A DNA stretch of 45,161 nucleotides, taken from assembly GCA_028706715.1 (NCBI GenBank), contig JAQTVQ010000001.1:1-45161 (forward strand). The letters run 5' to 3'. Each line of letters starts with the position of its first letter. Position 1 is the first letter of the stretch. Below the pieces are notes generated by a model. The model did not search any database and had not been told where the DNA came from. It saw only the letters and a list, made by a program, of their open reading frames with translations. The DNA is from Minisyncoccota bacterium. GTDB lineage: Bacteria; Patescibacteriota; Minisyncoccia; Minisyncoccales; JAQTVQ01. Shown one piece after another: positions 5,766 to 28,562 of this stretch. The position numbers were made by a program, and so were the translations under genes.

Positions 5766-6255
5766 ATTTTTTCAATCAAAATTATTCCAGGGGATATTGA
5801 TAGGCATTGGCATTTTCTTGATTTTTCTCTTTGTTTTTAAAGTGGGAATGGTAGTCGGAGCAAAAAAAGCCGAATTTTCGGGAGATTGGAGCGACAATTA
5901 TCATAGAAACTTTGCCGGGCCCAAGGGAGGATTTTTAAATAATTTCCAAGACAGGGACTTTATGGAAGCGAACGGGGTCTTTGGACAAATTATCAATATA
6001 GAAGATGCGAATATAATCGTAAAAGGAAAGAATAATATTGAAAAGGTTGTTTTATTTGAAGAAGGAACCACCACGATAAAAAAATTCCAAAAAGATTTAA
6101 GTCTTGCAGACTTAAATACAAATGATTCTGTAGTGATTATCGGCGAACCGAACAGCGAAGGGCAGATACAAGCCAGATTGATCAGGGTGATGCCTCCGAT
6201 TCCGCAAAACCAGCATCCGCAGAAAAATCCCATACTTGCGCCGCCGTTAAAATAA
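5749..6255 (+). CDS. Membrane-anchored DUF5666-like protein
   Basis: N-terminal TM then GQIINIEDANIIVKGKNNIEKVVLFEEGTTTIKK...NDSVVIIGEPNSEGQIQARLIRVMP; similar to 10279..10731. Confidence 0.5.
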   Translation: MQEITKFFQSKLFQGILIGIGIFLIFLFVFKVGMVVGAKKAEFSGDWSDNYHRNFAGPKGGFLNNFQDRDFMEANGVFGQIINIEDANIIVKGKNNIEKVVLFEEGTTTIKKFQKDLSLADLNTNDSVVIIGEPNSEGQIQARLIRVMPPIPQNQHPQKNPILAPPLK

Positions 6256-6313
6256 AATTCGTCAAAACCAATTCTTAAAAAATTTTAAGCTGGCTTAATT
6301 TTGGCCAAAATTT

Positions 6314-8206
6314 ATGAAAATCCTAGAAATGATAAAAAATATTGCGGGAAAAATTATCAGGCACAAAATCGTTTCATTCATAATAGCGGCTATCGCTATT
6401 GCCGGAGGAACCTTTGCTTTTAACGCTTTAGGGGGAGCATCCCAAATAAGATATGTTTTGGCCGCGGCTGAAAAAGGGAACATTATTACAACTGTATCCG
6501 GCAGCGGGCAGGTTTCCGCATCCAAGCAGGTAGATATAAAAGCCACTGTTTCGGGAGATGTAATTTCGGTAAACGCGAAAGTCGGAGACGAAGTAACAAA
6601 AGGACAGATTATTGCCCGGCTTGATTCAACTTCCGCCCAAAAGTCAGTAAGAGACGCCGAAACCAATTTGGAATCAGCCCAATTGGCTTTGGAAAAAATT
6701 TTGAAGCCTGCTGAAGATTTGGATATTCTAAAAGCGGAAAACAGCCTTGAACAGGCAAAACAAGCCGAAATTCAGGCCGAAGAAAATCTTGAAAAATCAT
6801 ACCAAGACAGTGTTGCCGCGCTGGAAACGATTTTTATCGGCCTTCCCAATATTATGGTTCGGCTTCATGACTTAATCATAGGAACAAGCATTTTTACGGA
6901 TAACATCAATTATTACGTAAATGCCGCAAAAAAATACGATTCCGCCATTAGCCAATATGGAAGCCGCGTTTCTTCTTCTTATGAAAATTCCTCCGAAGAA
7001 TATCAGGAAATATTTAATAAATATTTGAAAATCAGCCGATCATCGGACAGGCAAGACATTGAAAATCTAGTGGAAGAAGCCGTTGTCGCCGCTAGAGACA
7101 TTTCCGAAACAACAAAAAATGCCGCTGATTTGATTTCGCACAGCTATAATGTAATTCCCGCGACGCAAGGAAAAACTGTCAGTGATTCCAATTTGGCTTC
7201 TCTTAATTCCGACGCAGCAACGATTAAAACCTATTTGACCAGCATTACTTCCGCAAAAAATTCCATTCAAAGCTGCAAGCAAGCCTTGATTAATGCCGAA
7301 CTTTCAATAGCGGAAAAAGAAAAAACTCTTGAGGATTTAAAAGCGGGGCCTGATGAGCTTGAATTGAGATCTCAACAAATTTCCATCAGCCAAAAAGAAG
7401 AGGCCCTTGCCGAAGCCAAAGATAAATTAAACGATTACACCATAATAGCGCCGTTTGACGGAGTTATCGCGGCTATGGAAGTCAGCCAAGGAGATTCTAT
7501 CGCCTCCATCTCTTCATACGGAACGATAGCAACGATTATTACAAAAAGCCGAGTGGCCGAAATATCCCTTAACGAAGTTGACGCTTCCAAGGTGGAAGTC
7601 GGACAAAAAGCCAGCCTTGTTTTTGACGCGATAGACGACCTGGCCATTGTCGGCGAAGTTTCGGAAGTGGACACAATTGGAACTGTTTCCCAAGGAGTCG
7701 TTTCTTATAATGTAAAAATACTTTTTGACGCCGAAGAAAACAGGGTTAAGCCGGGGATGAGCGTTTCCGCTTCCATCATAACCGAAGCCGATCAAAATCT
7801 TTTATTGGTGCCAAGTTCGGCCATCCAAGGAACGGAGGGATATTATTATGTTGAAACATTAAGCGCGGAAAACATTTTATCCGGCCAAAACGCAACCGGA
7901 AGCGAAGGAGTCTTCTCCTTATCTGATCCAATCCAAAAATCAGTTGAAGTGGGCCTGTCCGACGACACGATGGTTGAAATAATAAGAGGCATTGAAGAAA
8001 AAGAGCTTGTCGTCGTAAAAACAATTATTCAAACTGTTCAGAGCGGCTCTTCCTCGCAGGGACAAGGGCTTTTCTCTTTTCCGGGAAGCAGAAACTCTTC
8101 CAAAAGCTCCAACGGAAACTCCGGCGCTAAAGGCAATTCTTCTTCGGGCGGATCTATCCCAAGCGGAGGAAATTTCCCGGCAGGAGGAATGGGACCGGGA
8201 ATGTAA
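6314..8206 (+). CDS. MacA/HlyD-type efflux periplasmic adaptor subunit
   Basis: GNIITTVSGSGQVSASKQVDIKATVSGDVISVNAKVGDEVTKGQIIARLDS biotinyl-lipoyl-like region, coiled coil, second half YTIIAPFDGVIAAMEVSQGDSI; Gly/Ser-rich tail. Confidence 0.88.
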   Translation: MKILEMIKNIAGKIIRHKIVSFIIAAIAIAGGTFAFNALGGASQIRYVLAAAEKGNIITTVSGSGQVSASKQVDIKATVSGDVISVNAKVGDEVTKGQIIARLDSTSAQKSVRDAETNLESAQLALEKILKPAEDLDILKAENSLEQAKQAEIQAEENLEKSYQDSVAALETIFIGLPNIMVRLHDLIIGTSIFTDNINYYVNAAKKYDSAISQYGSRVSSSYENSSEEYQEIFNKYLKISRSSDRQDIENLVEEAVVAARDISETTKNAADLISHSYNVIPATQGKTVSDSNLASLNSDAATIKTYLTSITSAKNSIQSCKQALINAELSIAEKEKTLEDLKAGPDELELRSQQISISQKEEALAEAKDKLNDYTIIAPFDGVIAAMEVSQGDSIASISSYGTIATIITKSRVAEISLNEVDASKVEVGQKASLVFDAIDDLAIVGEVSEVDTIGTVSQGVVSYNVKILFDAEENRVKPGMSVSASIITEADQNLLLVPSSAIQGTEGYYYVETLSAENILSGQNATGSEGVFSLSDPIQKSVEVGLSDDTMVEIIRGIEEKELVVVKTIIQTVQSGSSSQGQGLFSFPGSRNSSKSSNGNSGAKGNSSSGGSIPSGGNFPAGGMGPGM

Positions 8207-21384: not shown

Positions 21385-22050
21385 CTAGGGATTTTTTCTT
21401 TTATCGGCAAAAAGCCGCCTTAAGGTTTTAGCCGCAACCGGAGCTATAAGATAAAAAATGGAAGATTTCTTGCCGGTTGCGCGCGTTTTCTTTTCTATAA
21501 TGGCTCTTTTAAACTCTTCCAAAGTTTTGGCATCGGCTTCGGTATAGGCATTTCCGGACATTTGCATCAAATGGGCGTCGCTGCCTCCAAAAAAAGCAAG
21601 ATTATTTTCTTCCGCAACTTTGCGGGCTTTTTTATCGGCCAAAACATTGGGCAAACGGCCGTTAAAAACTTCTATTCCGTCAAAAATCTCGGCATATTTT
21701 TTCAAATCGCCGCGAAATTGTTCCGGAAAATGAAACGGATGAGCCGCAACAGCAATGCCCCCTTGGCCTTTTATCTCTTTAGCCGCTTCCAAAAGATTTC
21801 GGCTTTTAACCTCTTTTGACAGAAATAGTCCCAAGACATCTCCTTTATCCGTTTTTATCTCCTGTCCCAAAATAAGCAAGGCGTTATGCTTTTTGGCCGC
21901 TTCAATCGCTTCAGGCCATCCTTTGGCCGTATCGTGATCGGTTAAAGCAATACCGTCCATACCTTTTTTTAAAGCTGAAACTATGAGCTGCTCGGGAGAA
22001 TGCAAGCCGTCATAGGACCAATAGCTGTGATTATGGCAGTCTATTTTCAT
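21385..22050 (-). CDS. PHP domain metal-dependent phosphoesterase
   Basis: MKIDCHNHSYWSYDGLHSPEQL, ALTDHDTAKGWPEA, AVAAHPFHFPEQF, GGSDAHLMQMSG. Confidence 0.88.
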   Translation of the reverse strand: MKIDCHNHSYWSYDGLHSPEQLIVSALKKGMDGIALTDHDTAKGWPEAIEAAKKHNALLILGQEIKTDKGDVLGLFLSKEVKSRNLLEAAKEIKGQGGIAVAAHPFHFPEQFRGDLKKYAEIFDGIEVFNGRLPNVLADKKARKVAEENNLAFFGGSDAHLMQMSGNAYTEADAKTLEEFKRAIIEKKTRATGKKSSIFYLIAPVAAKTLRRLFADKRKNP

Positions 22051-22565
22051 TGATATTTTTCAACTGTAAATTTATATAATTCTATCTTTTCTCGGGCTAA
22101 ATCTATTTCCGCTTTATCCGCGGCTATGGCTATCTGCGATTCAATCGTCTCAACCCCCTCTAAATCAGGAAGCAAAAGCCCGCTTTTTTCTCCTTTAAAG
22201 CTTTTGACAATGACTCCGTATTTTTTCGGATTAAGCTCTTCAATAAAACGAACTGGCTCCGGCTTGTTTAAAACATAAACCGTAAAATCCAAATCAGAAA
22301 GCTCTTCCTTCTTAACGGGCCCGAAACGAAAATCTTTGGACGCCGCGGCAACGGCATTGTAAATCGTTTCTTCGGCAATATTATCATAACAGGGAAGATA
22401 GGTGCCGATACAAGCCCGTAATCGGCCTTTTTTTTCAATGGTAACAAAAACGCCGGCTTTTTTGTTGGTAAATTCTTTTCCAATATTAAGAGGCGCGGCA
22501 ATCTCCGCACCGCTAATTACATAATTTTCAACAGCCGATTTGGCTATTTCAACCAGCGGGTGCAT
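22047..22565 (-). CDS. AmmeMemoRadiSam system protein A (AMMECR1)
   Basis: GVFVTIEKKGRLRACIGTYLPCYDNIAEETIYNAVAAASKDFRF. Confidence 0.88.
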   Translation of the reverse strand: MHPLVEIAKSAVENYVISGAEIAAPLNIGKEFTNKKAGVFVTIEKKGRLRACIGTYLPCYDNIAEETIYNAVAAASKDFRFGPVKKEELSDLDFTVYVLNKPEPVRFIEELNPKKYGVIVKSFKGEKSGLLLPDLEGVETIESQIAIAADKAEIDLAREKIELYKFTVEKYQ

Positions 22566-22583: not shown

Positions 22584-23999
22584 TTAAATACCATAGTAAA
22601 GCATAAATTCGGCGGAACTGGGACAAGTGCGGACAAAATCATATTCAGCCGTTCTCTTATAGTCAATCCAAGAAGCGATCAGCTCTTCGGAAAAAACTCC
22701 GTCTTTAGTCAAAAAATCTTTATCTTTCTTTAGGGCAAGGAGGCTTTTATCAAGAGAGTCGGGAACTTGCGGCATAGTGTTGGAACAAGCCTCTTTATAA
22801 ATGTTCCCGCTAGCCGGATCTCCCGGATTAATTTTATTCGCAATACCGTCTATCCCGGCCAATAGCATAGCGGCAAAAGCCAAATAAGGATTAGCCGAAG
22901 GATCAGGCGGACGAAATTCTATTCTTTTTTGAGCAGGGCTTTTTGAATAATCCGGTATCCTAATGGCGGCTGAACGATTGCGGTTTGAATAAACCAAATT
23001 AACGGGAGCCTCAAATCCGGGAACAAGCCTTTTATAAGAATTGACCGTCGGCGCGGCAAAAGCCAAGACCGCAGGAGCGTGCTTCAACAATCCTCCGATA
23101 AAATGCAGAGCCGCCTCGCTTAAATTGGCATAGCCGGAATCGCTGTAAAAAATAGGGGAATTTTCTTTCCATAGAGAAATATGCACATGCATACCGGATC
23201 CGTTATCTCCAAAAATCGGCTTGGGCATAAAAGTCGCGGTTTTTCCGTTGCGGAAAGCCGTATTTTTTACCGCGTATTTAAAAGCCATCAGATTATCAGC
23301 CGTATTTTTCAATGTTCCGTATTTAATATCAATTTCCGCCTGTCCGCCGGCAGAAACTTCATGGTGCTCTTTTTCTGTTTCAATGCCCATTTTCTCCATT
23401 TCAATCATCATTTCGCGCCTAAGATCTGCCAATTGATCCGCCGGAGGAACAGGGAAGTATCCTTCCTTATTTTTTATCTTATACCCGTGTCCATTGCCCG
23501 GAGCGTTTTTGTCTTCTTTTGAATCCCAATTGGCTTCGGCTGATTTTATCTCGTGAAAAGAAAAGTTTTGGCCGATTCCAAAATTGGCTTTATCAAAAAT
23601 AAAAAATTCCGCTTCGGGGCCGAAATAAGCTTTATCGGCAATTCCGGTTCTTGCTAAAAAATATTCCGCTTTTTTCGCTACAAAACGAGGATCTTTTTCA
23701 AACGGCTGTCCGGATGGTTCGTAAATGCCGCAGACAAAGCTTGCTAAGGGAAATTTTGAAAAGGGATCTTTTGTAAAAGTTTTTTCATCCGGGATCAAAA
23801 TCATATCGCTGTCTTGTATTTCTTTAAATCCGCGGATGCTTGAACCGTCAAAGCCGATGCCTTCGGTAAAAATTTCCTTGTTGAATTTTTTCAAGGGAAC
23901 CGTAAAATGCTGCCAAGAGCCGGGCAAATCACAGAACTTCAAGTCAATAAAATTAATTCCGCTTTTTTCGCATTCTTCCATCATTTCTTCGTAAGACAT
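22584..23999 (-). CDS. glnA: Glutamine synthetase, type I
   Basis: EGIGFDGSSIRGF, GPEAEFFIFD, EKEHHEVSAGGQAEIDIKYGTL, FMPKPIFGDNGSGMHVHISLW, NRNRSAAIRIP, RIEFRPPDPSANPYLAFAAML. Confidence 0.96.
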   Translation of the reverse strand: MSYEEMMEECEKSGINFIDLKFCDLPGSWQHFTVPLKKFNKEIFTEGIGFDGSSIRGFKEIQDSDMILIPDEKTFTKDPFSKFPLASFVCGIYEPSGQPFEKDPRFVAKKAEYFLARTGIADKAYFGPEAEFFIFDKANFGIGQNFSFHEIKSAEANWDSKEDKNAPGNGHGYKIKNKEGYFPVPPADQLADLRREMMIEMEKMGIETEKEHHEVSAGGQAEIDIKYGTLKNTADNLMAFKYAVKNTAFRNGKTATFMPKPIFGDNGSGMHVHISLWKENSPIFYSDSGYANLSEAALHFIGGLLKHAPAVLAFAAPTVNSYKRLVPGFEAPVNLVYSNRNRSAAIRIPDYSKSPAQKRIEFRPPDPSANPYLAFAAMLLAGIDGIANKINPGDPASGNIYKEACSNTMPQVPDSLDKSLLALKKDKDFLTKDGVFSEELIASWIDYKRTAEYDFVRTCPSSAEFMLYYGI

Positions 24000-24033: not shown

Positions 24034-24062
24034 AAAAAACTCCTAAGCCATACGGCTAGGAG
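24034..24062 (-). terminator. Intrinsic terminator in the glnA leader
   Basis: Minus strand ctcctagcc-gtat-ggc(t)taggag-tttttt, between predicted promoter and glnA start. Confidence 0.8.
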
Positions 24063-24099
24063 ACATCATTGTCCGATTGCGGCGCATCGTTGAGCCGCA
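24061..24099 (-). promoter_or_regulatory. Candidate ANTAR-target RNA: two hairpins with AnnGnn hexaloops
   Basis: P1: tgcggc-t-c[aacgat]g-c-gccgca (24099-24078). P2: ggac[aatgat]gtct (24074-24061). Both hexaloops have A1 and G4. P2 overlaps the terminator 5' arm (24062-24061). Confidence 0.72.
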
Positions 24100-24110
24100 T
24101 TAATGTTTTT

Positions 24111-24139
24111 ATTATAAAGGTTTGATTTTTTTTGGTCAA
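24111..24139 (-). promoter_or_regulatory. Predicted sigma70 promoter of glnA leader
   Basis: Minus strand TTGACC (24139-24134), 17-nt spacer, TATAAT (24116-24111). Confidence 0.75.
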
Positions 24140-24215
24140 GACAGGAAAAAGTTTAAAAATTTCTGTCTGTCGGCAGGCAATTATTAAAAAATTATTTGAA
24201 AACTGGAAAAGGAAA

Positions 24216-24938
24216 CTATCTTTTCGCTTTAATATCGCTGGAAATAATTATGGCGTTCGCCACCTCCTTTAGCGACAGTCTTTTATCCATGCTTTTTTTA
24301 TGCAAAAGCCTGTAGGCTTCTTCTTCGGAGATGTTGAGATCTTTCATCAAAATGCCCTTGGCTCTTTCAATAAGCTTTCTTATCTCCAGGGCCTCTTTCA
24401 AAGCTTCTTTTTCCGAAAAAAGAAGGGCATTATCAATGGCGCCGCCCGTAGCTTTGGCAACCAGCTCAAAAAGGACAATTTCCGTTTTTGAATATTTTTT
24501 AGGCTTGGAGTGCTGGACGTTTATCACTCCCAAAATTTTATCGCGGTAAATAATCGGGACCGAAAGAATCGCTTCAAATTTGTCTTCGGGCAGGCTGTTA
24601 AAAAATTTAAACCGCTTGTCTTTGTAAGCTTCTTTGGCAACGGCAATAGTCTTTTGCTTTTGGGCCGCCCATCCCGCAATGCCTTCTCCTATCTTCATTT
24701 TGATATTTCCTATTTCCAAAGGCTTGGGATTTAAAGAAGCCCGCAAAACCAAATTTCCGCCGTCAATCAAGTATAAAAAACATGAGTCGGCCTTGGTTAC
24801 GGAGCTGACAATTTGGACAATGCGGCTTAGGACCTCCTTAAGGTCAAGATTATAGCTGACAGTCTGTATGATTTCGTATAAAAGCTTAAGCTCTTTTTTT
24901 TCCGATTTTGCTTTTTCCATTTTTTTTATTATTTTCAA
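24216..24938 (-). CDS. GAF domain plus ANTAR (RNA-binding antiterminator) domain protein
   Basis: GAF: LKEVLSRIVQIVSSVTKADSCFLYLID...GEGIAGWAAQKQKTIAV...ILSVPIIYRDKILGVINV. ANTAR: RKLIERAKGILMKDLNISEEEAYRLLHKKSMDKRLSLKEVANAIIIS. Confidence 0.87.
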   Translation of the reverse strand: MKIIKKMEKAKSEKKELKLLYEIIQTVSYNLDLKEVLSRIVQIVSSVTKADSCFLYLIDGGNLVLRASLNPKPLEIGNIKMKIGEGIAGWAAQKQKTIAVAKEAYKDKRFKFFNSLPEDKFEAILSVPIIYRDKILGVINVQHSKPKKYSKTEIVLFELVAKATGGAIDNALLFSEKEALKEALEIRKLIERAKGILMKDLNISEEEAYRLLHKKSMDKRLSLKEVANAIIISSDIKAKR

Positions 24939-25551
24939 AATTAAAATTTGCCGTTAAATATCCCACCCCGAAAGGACCTTCATAAGACAAGATTTCCGGC
25001 CGGTAATCTATTTTGGCGGCGTCCAATATTCCCAGCAAAAAAGCAAAAGACCGCAAGCCGCATTCTCCGGCATTCGGATAAATTTCATCCAGCACCAATA
25101 TTTTTTCCGTTTCTTTCTTTGCTAGAAAATCTTGGAAATCTTTATCAAAATTGGGGCCTTCGGGATTAAATCCGTAAGGGCCGTCTTCTTTTAAGCAATG
25201 GGACATATCCCCGGAAGCGATTAAAGCCGCTTTCTTGAATTCCGATCCCAGCTGGGCTTCGGCAAAAATACGCCTGCCTTCTTCAAAATAAAACTTTGGG
25301 CTCTCCAATCCGGTAAGATAAGTTTTTATGTTTCCTTGAAAATTTTTAGCCAAAAAATGAAGGGGGACATTGAAGCCCCAATCGGCGTGAGGAGAAGAAA
25401 TGATAATAAAATCAGGATTAACGCTTTCAAGCTTTGAGCCAAGAATCTCCAAAGCATTAACCGTGCTTTCCAGCATTGCGCGATCCTCTTCGGACCCGAC
25501 CGAAGGCAGTAAAATTGGAGGATGCGGTGATATGCAGGCAAAACTTATCAT
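24886..25551 (-). CDS. AmmeMemoRadiSam system protein B (Memo-like/extradiol dioxygenase-like)
   Basis: CISPHPPILLPSVGSEED, IIISSPHADWGFNVPLHFL, ASGDMSHCLKEDGPYGFNPEGPNFD. Confidence 0.75.
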   Translation of the reverse strand: MISFACISPHPPILLPSVGSEEDRAMLESTVNALEILGSKLESVNPDFIIISSPHADWGFNVPLHFLAKNFQGNIKTYLTGLESPKFYFEEGRRIFAEAQLGSEFKKAALIASGDMSHCLKEDGPYGFNPEGPNFDKDFQDFLAKKETEKILVLDEIYPNAGECGLRSFAFLLGILDAAKIDYRPEILSYEGPFGVGYLTANFNFENNKKNGKSKIGKKRA

Positions 25552-27519: not shown

Positions 27520-27547
27520 AAAAAACGCGAAGCAATTCGCGTTTTTT
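27520..27547. terminator. Bidirectional terminator between trpS and the radical SAM gene
   Basis: aaaaaacgcgaagcaattcgcgtttttt. Confidence 0.85.
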
Positions 27548-28562
27548 ATTTCTCAATAATATCAAGTTTCGTCTTGCACTCAGGACAATTTCCGTCCAAA
27601 GTAAGATTTTTTATTTTGTATCCTTCCCGTTGGATGCAAAGGGCTCCGCATTGCGGACAAAAAGTATTTTCCGAATCAAGGCCGGGAACATTGCCTGTAT
27701 AAACATATTTCAAACCGGCGTCTTTTCCTATTTTATAAGCGCTTTTTAAAGTCTTCAAAGAAGTGTCCGGCGTCTTTTTCAGCTTCCAAGAAATAGCTCC
27801 GCTAAAACGGTTAATGTGCCAAGGAGTCTCCTCTCCCAGCTCTTTTTTAATGAATTTGGCGATTTTCCTGAACATTTCCGGCGAATCGCTCCTTTTTGGG
27901 ATCGCCAAGGTGGTAATTTCTATCCAAATACCGGCTTTTTTTAAATTCTTGCAGGTTTCTAAAACCGGTTCCAGCCTTGCTCCGCAAGTCTGCCGATAGA
28001 ACTCCTCCGTAAATCCTTTGATGTCAATATTGCAGGCGTCCAAAAAGGGAATAACCTCTTCTCTTGATTCCTTGCTCATAAAACCGTTTGAAACCCAAAC
28101 ATTTTTCAACCCGGCTTTTTTGGCCAGCTTCATAATATCCAAGGCGTATTCCAAAAAAATAGTGGGCTCTGTGTAGGTGTAAGAGATGGAAGCGGTTTTG
28201 CTTTTCAAAGCTTCTTGAACAATTTCCTGGGGCGAGAGTTCTTTCCCCGGCATTTCGGCTAAATTTTTACAATTTTGAGATATATCATAATTCTGGCAGT
28301 TCAAACAGGAAAAGTTGCATCCCGCGGCTCCCACTGACAGAGAAGAGCTTCCGGGCAAGAAATGGAATAACGGCTTCTTTTCAATCGGGTCAACATTGCA
28401 AGCTAAAGCCTTTCCGTAATTTAAGACGAAAAGCTGTCCGTTAATGTTCTCTCTCACTCCGCAGATTCCTCTTTTTCCGGGCAAAATAAAACATCCGTGC
28501 GCGCAAGTTTGGCATTGGACATTTTCTCTTTCCAGTTTCTTATAGAGCAATACTTCCTTCAT
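27546..28562 (-). CDS. AmmeMemoRadiSam system radical SAM enzyme
   Basis: CQTCAHGCFILPGKRGICGVREN, GAAGCNFSCLNCQNYDISQ, SYTYTEPTIFLEYALDIM, C-terminal CPQCG zinc-ribbon-like tail. Confidence 0.9.
   Translation of the reverse strand: MKEVLLYKKLERENVQCQTCAHGCFILPGKRGICGVRENINGQLFVLNYGKALACNVDPIEKKPLFHFLPGSSSLSVGAAGCNFSCLNCQNYDISQNCKNLAEMPGKELSPQEIVQEALKSKTASISYTYTEPTIFLEYALDIMKLAKKAGLKNVWVSNGFMSKESREEVIPFLDACNIDIKGFTEEFYRQTCGARLEPVLETCKNLKKAGIWIEITTLAIPKRSDSPEMFRKIAKFIKKELGEETPWHINRFSGAISWKLKKTPDTSLKTLKSAYKIGKDAGLKYVYTGNVPGLDSENTFCPQCGALCIQREGYKIKNLTLDGNCPECKTKLDIIEK

Follow-up and report, generated by a model that had tools for sequence, protein, structure and literature searches.

In the patescibacterial genome analyzed here, the glutamine synthetase gene glnA is very probably controlled by transcription attenuation, through a one-component ANTAR switch that serves nitrogen assimilation. 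The predicted steps are binding of the glnA leader RNA by a GAF-ANTAR protein and consequent antitermination. The earlier note on this DNA had paired the same regulator, leader and gene, and its interpretation is supported by the sequence comparisons presented below.

Arrangement of the glnA locus

The window, meaning the whole 45,161-nt stretch of DNA that was analyzed, is part of a contig of 86 kb. The genome comprises 755 kb at 97% completeness; its size and its relatives, labelled Patescibacteria/Parcubacteria, agree with the CPR-like character suspected earlier. Elements of the locus follow one another on the minus strand in the order MEMO/LigB-like gene, GAF-ANTAR gene, promoter, hairpin P1, hairpin P2, terminator, glnA. 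The first of these, the MEMO/LigB-like gene (24886-25551), extends into the start of the GAF-ANTAR regulator gene (24216..24938). The sigma-70-type promoter for glnA, TTGACC-17-TATAAT (24139-24111), matches 11 of 12 consensus bases, and a TTGAC-type promoter with 16-17 nt spacing is also present upstream of most homologous leaders. Next come P1 (24079..24098; stem 24098-24092/24085-24079, loop AACGAU at 24091-24086), P2 (24061..24074; stem 24074-24071/24064-24061, loop AAUGAU at 24070-24065) and an intrinsic terminator (24034..24062) composed of the arms CTCCTAGCC/GGCTTAGGAG (24062-24054 and 24049-24040) and a T6 tract (24039-24034). The presumed regulated gene, glnA (22584-23999), encodes a type I glutamine synthetase (TIGR00653, 8.4e-184, above cut-off) and is the sole glnA detected in the genome. 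The coordinates first read from the window are all reproduced, including positions 24061-24062 shared by P2 and the terminator. Transcription of glnA from a site downstream of 24034 had been named as incompatible with leader control; the sequence downstream of the leader revealed no further promoter-like site.

With the ANTAR gene immediately upstream, read-through transcripts would also reach the terminator, which might then be nothing but the 3' end of the MEMO/GAF-ANTAR transcript, with glnA constitutive and the hairpins incidental. We regard this as very improbable: a strong promoter separates the ANTAR stop codon from the hairpins, one homologous locus (G006, L016) has the leader before glnA and the ANTAR gene downstream of glnA, and leaders also occur before gltB on other contigs.

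The neighborhood also contains the AmmeMemoRadiSam trio, a conserved set of genes of unknown function: AMMECR1-like (22047-22565), MEMO/LigB-like (24886-25551) and radical SAM (27546-28562; TIGR04337, 2.8e-104), all on the minus strand. These genes are interleaved with glnA and the GAF-ANTAR gene in the window and in the sister species G001; the trio is also found near the locus in G245 and, in part, in G042.

Folding of the leader

Both loops in the window comprise six nucleotides with A at position 1 and G at position 4. A1 and U6 of each loop are able to pair in the free fold; most homologous hexaloops end in C, G or A. Loops are 21 nt apart in the window and 18-25 nt in homologs without inserted linker hairpins, and the P1-P2 linker is short, 3-5 nt depending on the end pairs counted (5-12 nt in the eut leaders of Enterococcus faecalis). 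We searched the window with a scanner for two A..G.. hexaloop hairpins followed by an overlapping terminator. The leader scored 45.5 and the next-best site 26.4. Among 200 dinucleotide-shuffled windows, not one attained 45.5, and when the leader itself (217 nt) was shuffled 2000 times, only one shuffle gave any match.

The folding check proposed earlier gave two alternative structures. RNA that stops at the end of P2 forms both hairpins (-14.3 kcal/mol), and RNA extended through the U-tract folds as P1+terminator, with P2 absent from the minimum-energy fold. The terminator stem (-12.1 kcal/mol) holds one bulged U, which is why a simple scan misses it. In each of the 13 leaders compared, the minimum-energy fold of the full-length RNA has the terminator in place of P2. 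The earlier note had described the two structures as mutually exclusive; the loss of P2 bears this out in part, but strict exclusion is a somewhat too strong statement for the window. Exclusion here is partial, because P2 and the 5' arm of the terminator have only 2 nt in common (24061-24062; 2-7 nt in homologs) and forcing P2 into the full-length fold costs 1.8 kcal/mol (1.3-7.6 in the 12 other leaders). It is likely to rely on the bound protein as well as on loss of the base of the stem beside the U-tract.

An overlap of just 2 nt might also suit a different role, in which the hairpins are an ANTAR target and the protein influences translation or the stability of the RNA, or is itself sequestered by the RNA. 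Actinobacterial ANTAR RNAs often overlap the start codon or ribosome-binding site, and few of them precede a terminator (PMC8164766). Such a role appears improbable for the present leaders, however: P2 is followed by an overlapping terminator and a U-tract in the leaders examined, and in most of them the terminator covers the entire 3' strand of P2.

Conservation of the leader

Homologous leaders precede glnA in nearly all Patescibacteria genomes that have both a GAF-ANTAR gene and a type I glnA. Among 247 genomes from the order, an ANTAR gene is present in 9 and a type I GlnA scoring above 600 bits in 7; all 7 of these glnA genes have the leader, which is absent from the four weaker glutamine synthases examined in the order. 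Further Patescibacteria loci share the layout, several of them outside the order's ANTAR-positive genomes. Across the phylum ANTAR is uncommon, with a match in 3 of 384 sampled genomes, 2 of them above the cut-off.

The leader alignment that the earlier note had called for retains the paired hairpins and reveals compensatory changes in their stems. A1 and G4, taken there as the signature of ANTAR target RNAs, are kept in both loops of 13/13 leaders. Standard pairs occupy 92.3% of the pair cells in these 13 sequences, and double compensatory changes affect five pairs, including four of the six P1 pairs. The P2 stem GAC/GTC, for instance, is replaced by GTC/GAC and GGC/GCC in homologs. None of 500 shuffles matched the covariation score, and slid controls scored far lower.

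Two covariance models were used in the searches. Because the training set of R1 includes the window leader, R2 was trained on four different leaders of Patescibacteria and one leader from another phylum, with none from the genomes of the window's order. Searched genome-wide, R2 ranks the window leader first (E 0.0047; the next match has E 0.6). A second match in the same genome (C17:20365-20390, E 1.7 / 0.6) was rejected: it is apparently coding and the layout is missing.

Leader and regulator occur together. The leader is detected (E<1e-4) in 8 of the 247 genomes, 7 of which have an ANTAR gene (Fisher p 2.8e-11, a value that overstates independence because the genomes are related). Leaders are present in the 71%-complete genome G246, in which no ANTAR gene was found; in the ANTAR-positive genomes G036 and G042, where the ANTAR genes lie near contig ends, leader and glnA were undetected.

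Glutamine riboswitches occur in glnA leaders elsewhere, and another cis-acting leader (T-box, glutamine riboswitch or PyrR-type attenuator) could in principle control glnA, its ANTAR resemblance being coincidental. The window yields a PyrR match of 20.3 bits, far from the cut-off of 54; this and other sub-threshold Rfam matches near the leader were judged to be chance, and the window contains no match at the cut-off of any Rfam family. Conservation of A1/G4 in both loops of every leader, together with a presence that tracks the ANTAR gene, largely refutes this explanation and leaves it scarcely credible.

The GAF-ANTAR protein

The regulator gene had been read as GAF-ANTAR from its translation, and Pfam recovers both domains: GAF with 1e-17 and ANTAR with 9.8e-22 (76.9 bits against a cut-off of 27.3), the latter aligned over 54/54 positions. 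It is the only ANTAR gene in this genome. The listed start is TTG at 24938 (240 aa); an ATG six codons further along, at 24920, is more likely to be used (234 aa). Alignment of the ANTAR domain with that of EutV requires no gaps. Of the eleven EutV residues that contact RNA (PMC8934654), seven are identical (R142, K143, K149, E160, Y164, M172 and R175), K147 is conservatively replaced by R, and three are changed (R168H, N173D, R177S). An AlphaFold model (pLDDT 82) displays the GAF domain, a single long helix 151-201 running into ANTAR, where a dimerizing coiled coil would be expected, and two further helices. The top structural matches of the protein cover GAF only; the ANTAR assignment comes from sequence.

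A tree of 80 GAF-ANTAR proteins unites the Patescibacteria members with leaders in one clade (support 100/97). Proteins of this CPR clade have one GAF domain and mostly about 235 aa. We considered binning contamination and rejected it: the arrangement is also found in a genome of the same genus, and the supported Patescibacteria clade disfavors a foreign origin of the contig.

Predicted mechanism and likely signal

We infer RNA binding, a dimeric state and a positive direction of regulation. By default, polymerase starting at the 24139-24111 promoter would transcribe the leader, P1 and then the terminator would fold, and transcription would stop before glnA. With the GAF domain in its active ligand state, a dimeric GAF-ANTAR protein would bind the nascent RNA, first at the P1 hexaloop and then at P2, G4 presumably stacking on the conserved Tyr. 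Holding P2 would remove the base of the terminator stem beside the U-tract and let transcription enter glnA.

The GAF sequence is closest to that of PtsP/EI-Ntr (GAF region of NF008283, 6.4e-19, which as expected does not reach the cut-off for the whole protein), and so is the GAF structure (3ci6, TM 0.84, 27% identity). The PtsP/EI-Ntr GAF binds glutamine in Sinorhizobium, and glutamine sensitivity is also described in Caulobacter (PMC4848567). The GAF of NifA, more distant from the window GAF than that of PtsP/EI-Ntr, binds 2-oxoglutarate (PMC8219145). These affinities point to glutamine (inhibiting) and/or 2-oxoglutarate (activating) as the likely ligand. PII, an ammonium transporter (Amt) and glutamate synthase (GltB) were each undetected in a search of the genome; together with the single ANTAR gene, this makes a direct reader of glutamine or 2-oxoglutarate our best guess for the role of the protein.

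A wider proposal is that, in streamlined Patescibacteria lacking PII and Amt, a single-GAF ANTAR protein sensing glutamine or 2-oxoglutarate directly would be the sole nitrogen regulator and would act through RNA only, and that leader architectures with a third hexaloop or a 9-bp spacer hairpin newly evolved there. We put this forward tentatively, as a possibility somewhat less probable than its negation.

Leader variants and other putative targets

Two leaders depart from the basic layout. The leader of G001 (L022:2411-2503, minus strand) has a third A1/G4 hairpin, with loop AGAGCA, between P1 and P2; its loop-to-loop spacings are 23 and 22 nt, and the fold contains the third hairpin, which looks like a duplicated P2. 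In G245 (L020:1323-1410, plus strand), P1 and P2 are separated by 45 nt that include a 23-nt hairpin of 9 bp, which would restore an effective P1-P2 spacing of about 22 nt. We have not seen either architecture described before.

Leaders are not confined to glnA. Outside its training set, R1 matches leaders ahead of glutamate synthase genes, one in G246 (L157:1356-1400, plus strand) and a weaker one in G091 (L153:2731-2775, minus strand); these positions suggest a GS/GOGAT regulon in the family of the two genomes. In a member of Staskawiczbacteria without type I glnA (G219, L055:5777-6128, plus strand), the leader lies downstream of the GAF-ANTAR gene and precedes a 75-aa cysteine-containing ORF without a Pfam match. 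In Nitrospirota (L117, L120, L121, L123 and L126, around 6160-6390, plus strand) it adjoins the gene for a glutamine-dependent NAD synthetase (nadE) downstream of GAF-ANTAR, and in Omnitrophota (L077, L107, L116) it precedes amt. A glnA leader from Elusimicrobium (L060:3649-3706, minus strand) has GATGAT loops, in which G replaces A1 in both, and a spacer hairpin.

Relation to known ANTAR systems

Antitermination by ANTAR proteins through dual hexaloops is established for EutV (PMC3369931, PMC8934654). The window leader resembles the eut leaders of E. faecalis in its two A1/G4 hexaloops and in a P2 that overlaps an intrinsic terminator, and the ANTAR domains of the two proteins are homologous, both containing the G4-stacking Tyr (Tyr164) and the Met plug (Met172). 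The systems differ in input, a GAF domain here and a phosphorylated receiver (REC) in EutV, and in target, which is glnA, with one leader in the genome, whereas E. faecalis has several. The overlap is also shorter: 2 nt in the window, whereas P2 of eut is embedded in the terminator.

NasR of Klebsiella is a NIT-ANTAR one-component sensor and the clostridial NitR a REC-ANTAR protein encoded near glnA; both act by antitermination of nitrogen-assimilation genes, as predicted here, but their sensory domains and signals differ. GAF-ANTAR proteins of Nitrospirota, Omnitrophota, Elusimicrobiota and Acidobacteriota are related, and the leaders found with them adjoin nitrogen-linked genes; most of these proteins are about 420 aa long (two GAF domains in the single protein checked), in contrast to the shorter single-GAF proteins of the CPR clade. 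The PtsP/EI-Ntr GAF (PDB 3ci6, 3trc) is the closest GAF of known context in sequence and structure, but it controls autophosphorylation, whereas the window GAF is joined to a predicted RNA-binding domain.

Dual-hairpin ANTAR targets were predicted in 2012 upstream of PII, ammonium transporter, glutamate synthase and glutamine synthase genes, with nitrogen-gene regulons in, e.g., Desulfotomaculum and Pelobacter (PMC3369931). The mechanism is therefore not new; what is notable is the CPR host, the single GAF and the leader variants. The window locus shares dual-hairpin targets at nitrogen genes with those regulons. The main text of that work does not report Patescibacteria, and covariation and regulator co-occurrence are added here; the same source stated at the time that no combination of ANTAR with GAF had been characterized (PMC3369931). 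The earlier note was aware of no such system in a CPR-like genome, and we likewise found no description of an ANTAR system from Patescibacteria in the open-access literature, which is weak evidence of absence.

Little is known about metabolic regulation in CPR bacteria. A compact and self-contained switch consisting of a soluble sensor and one target could be reconstituted in vitro with no need for a culture of the organism, and could then reveal a GAF-ANTAR ligand. The natural spacing variants, in turn, test a proposed model in which an ANTAR dimer visits the two hairpins sequentially under a distance constraint.
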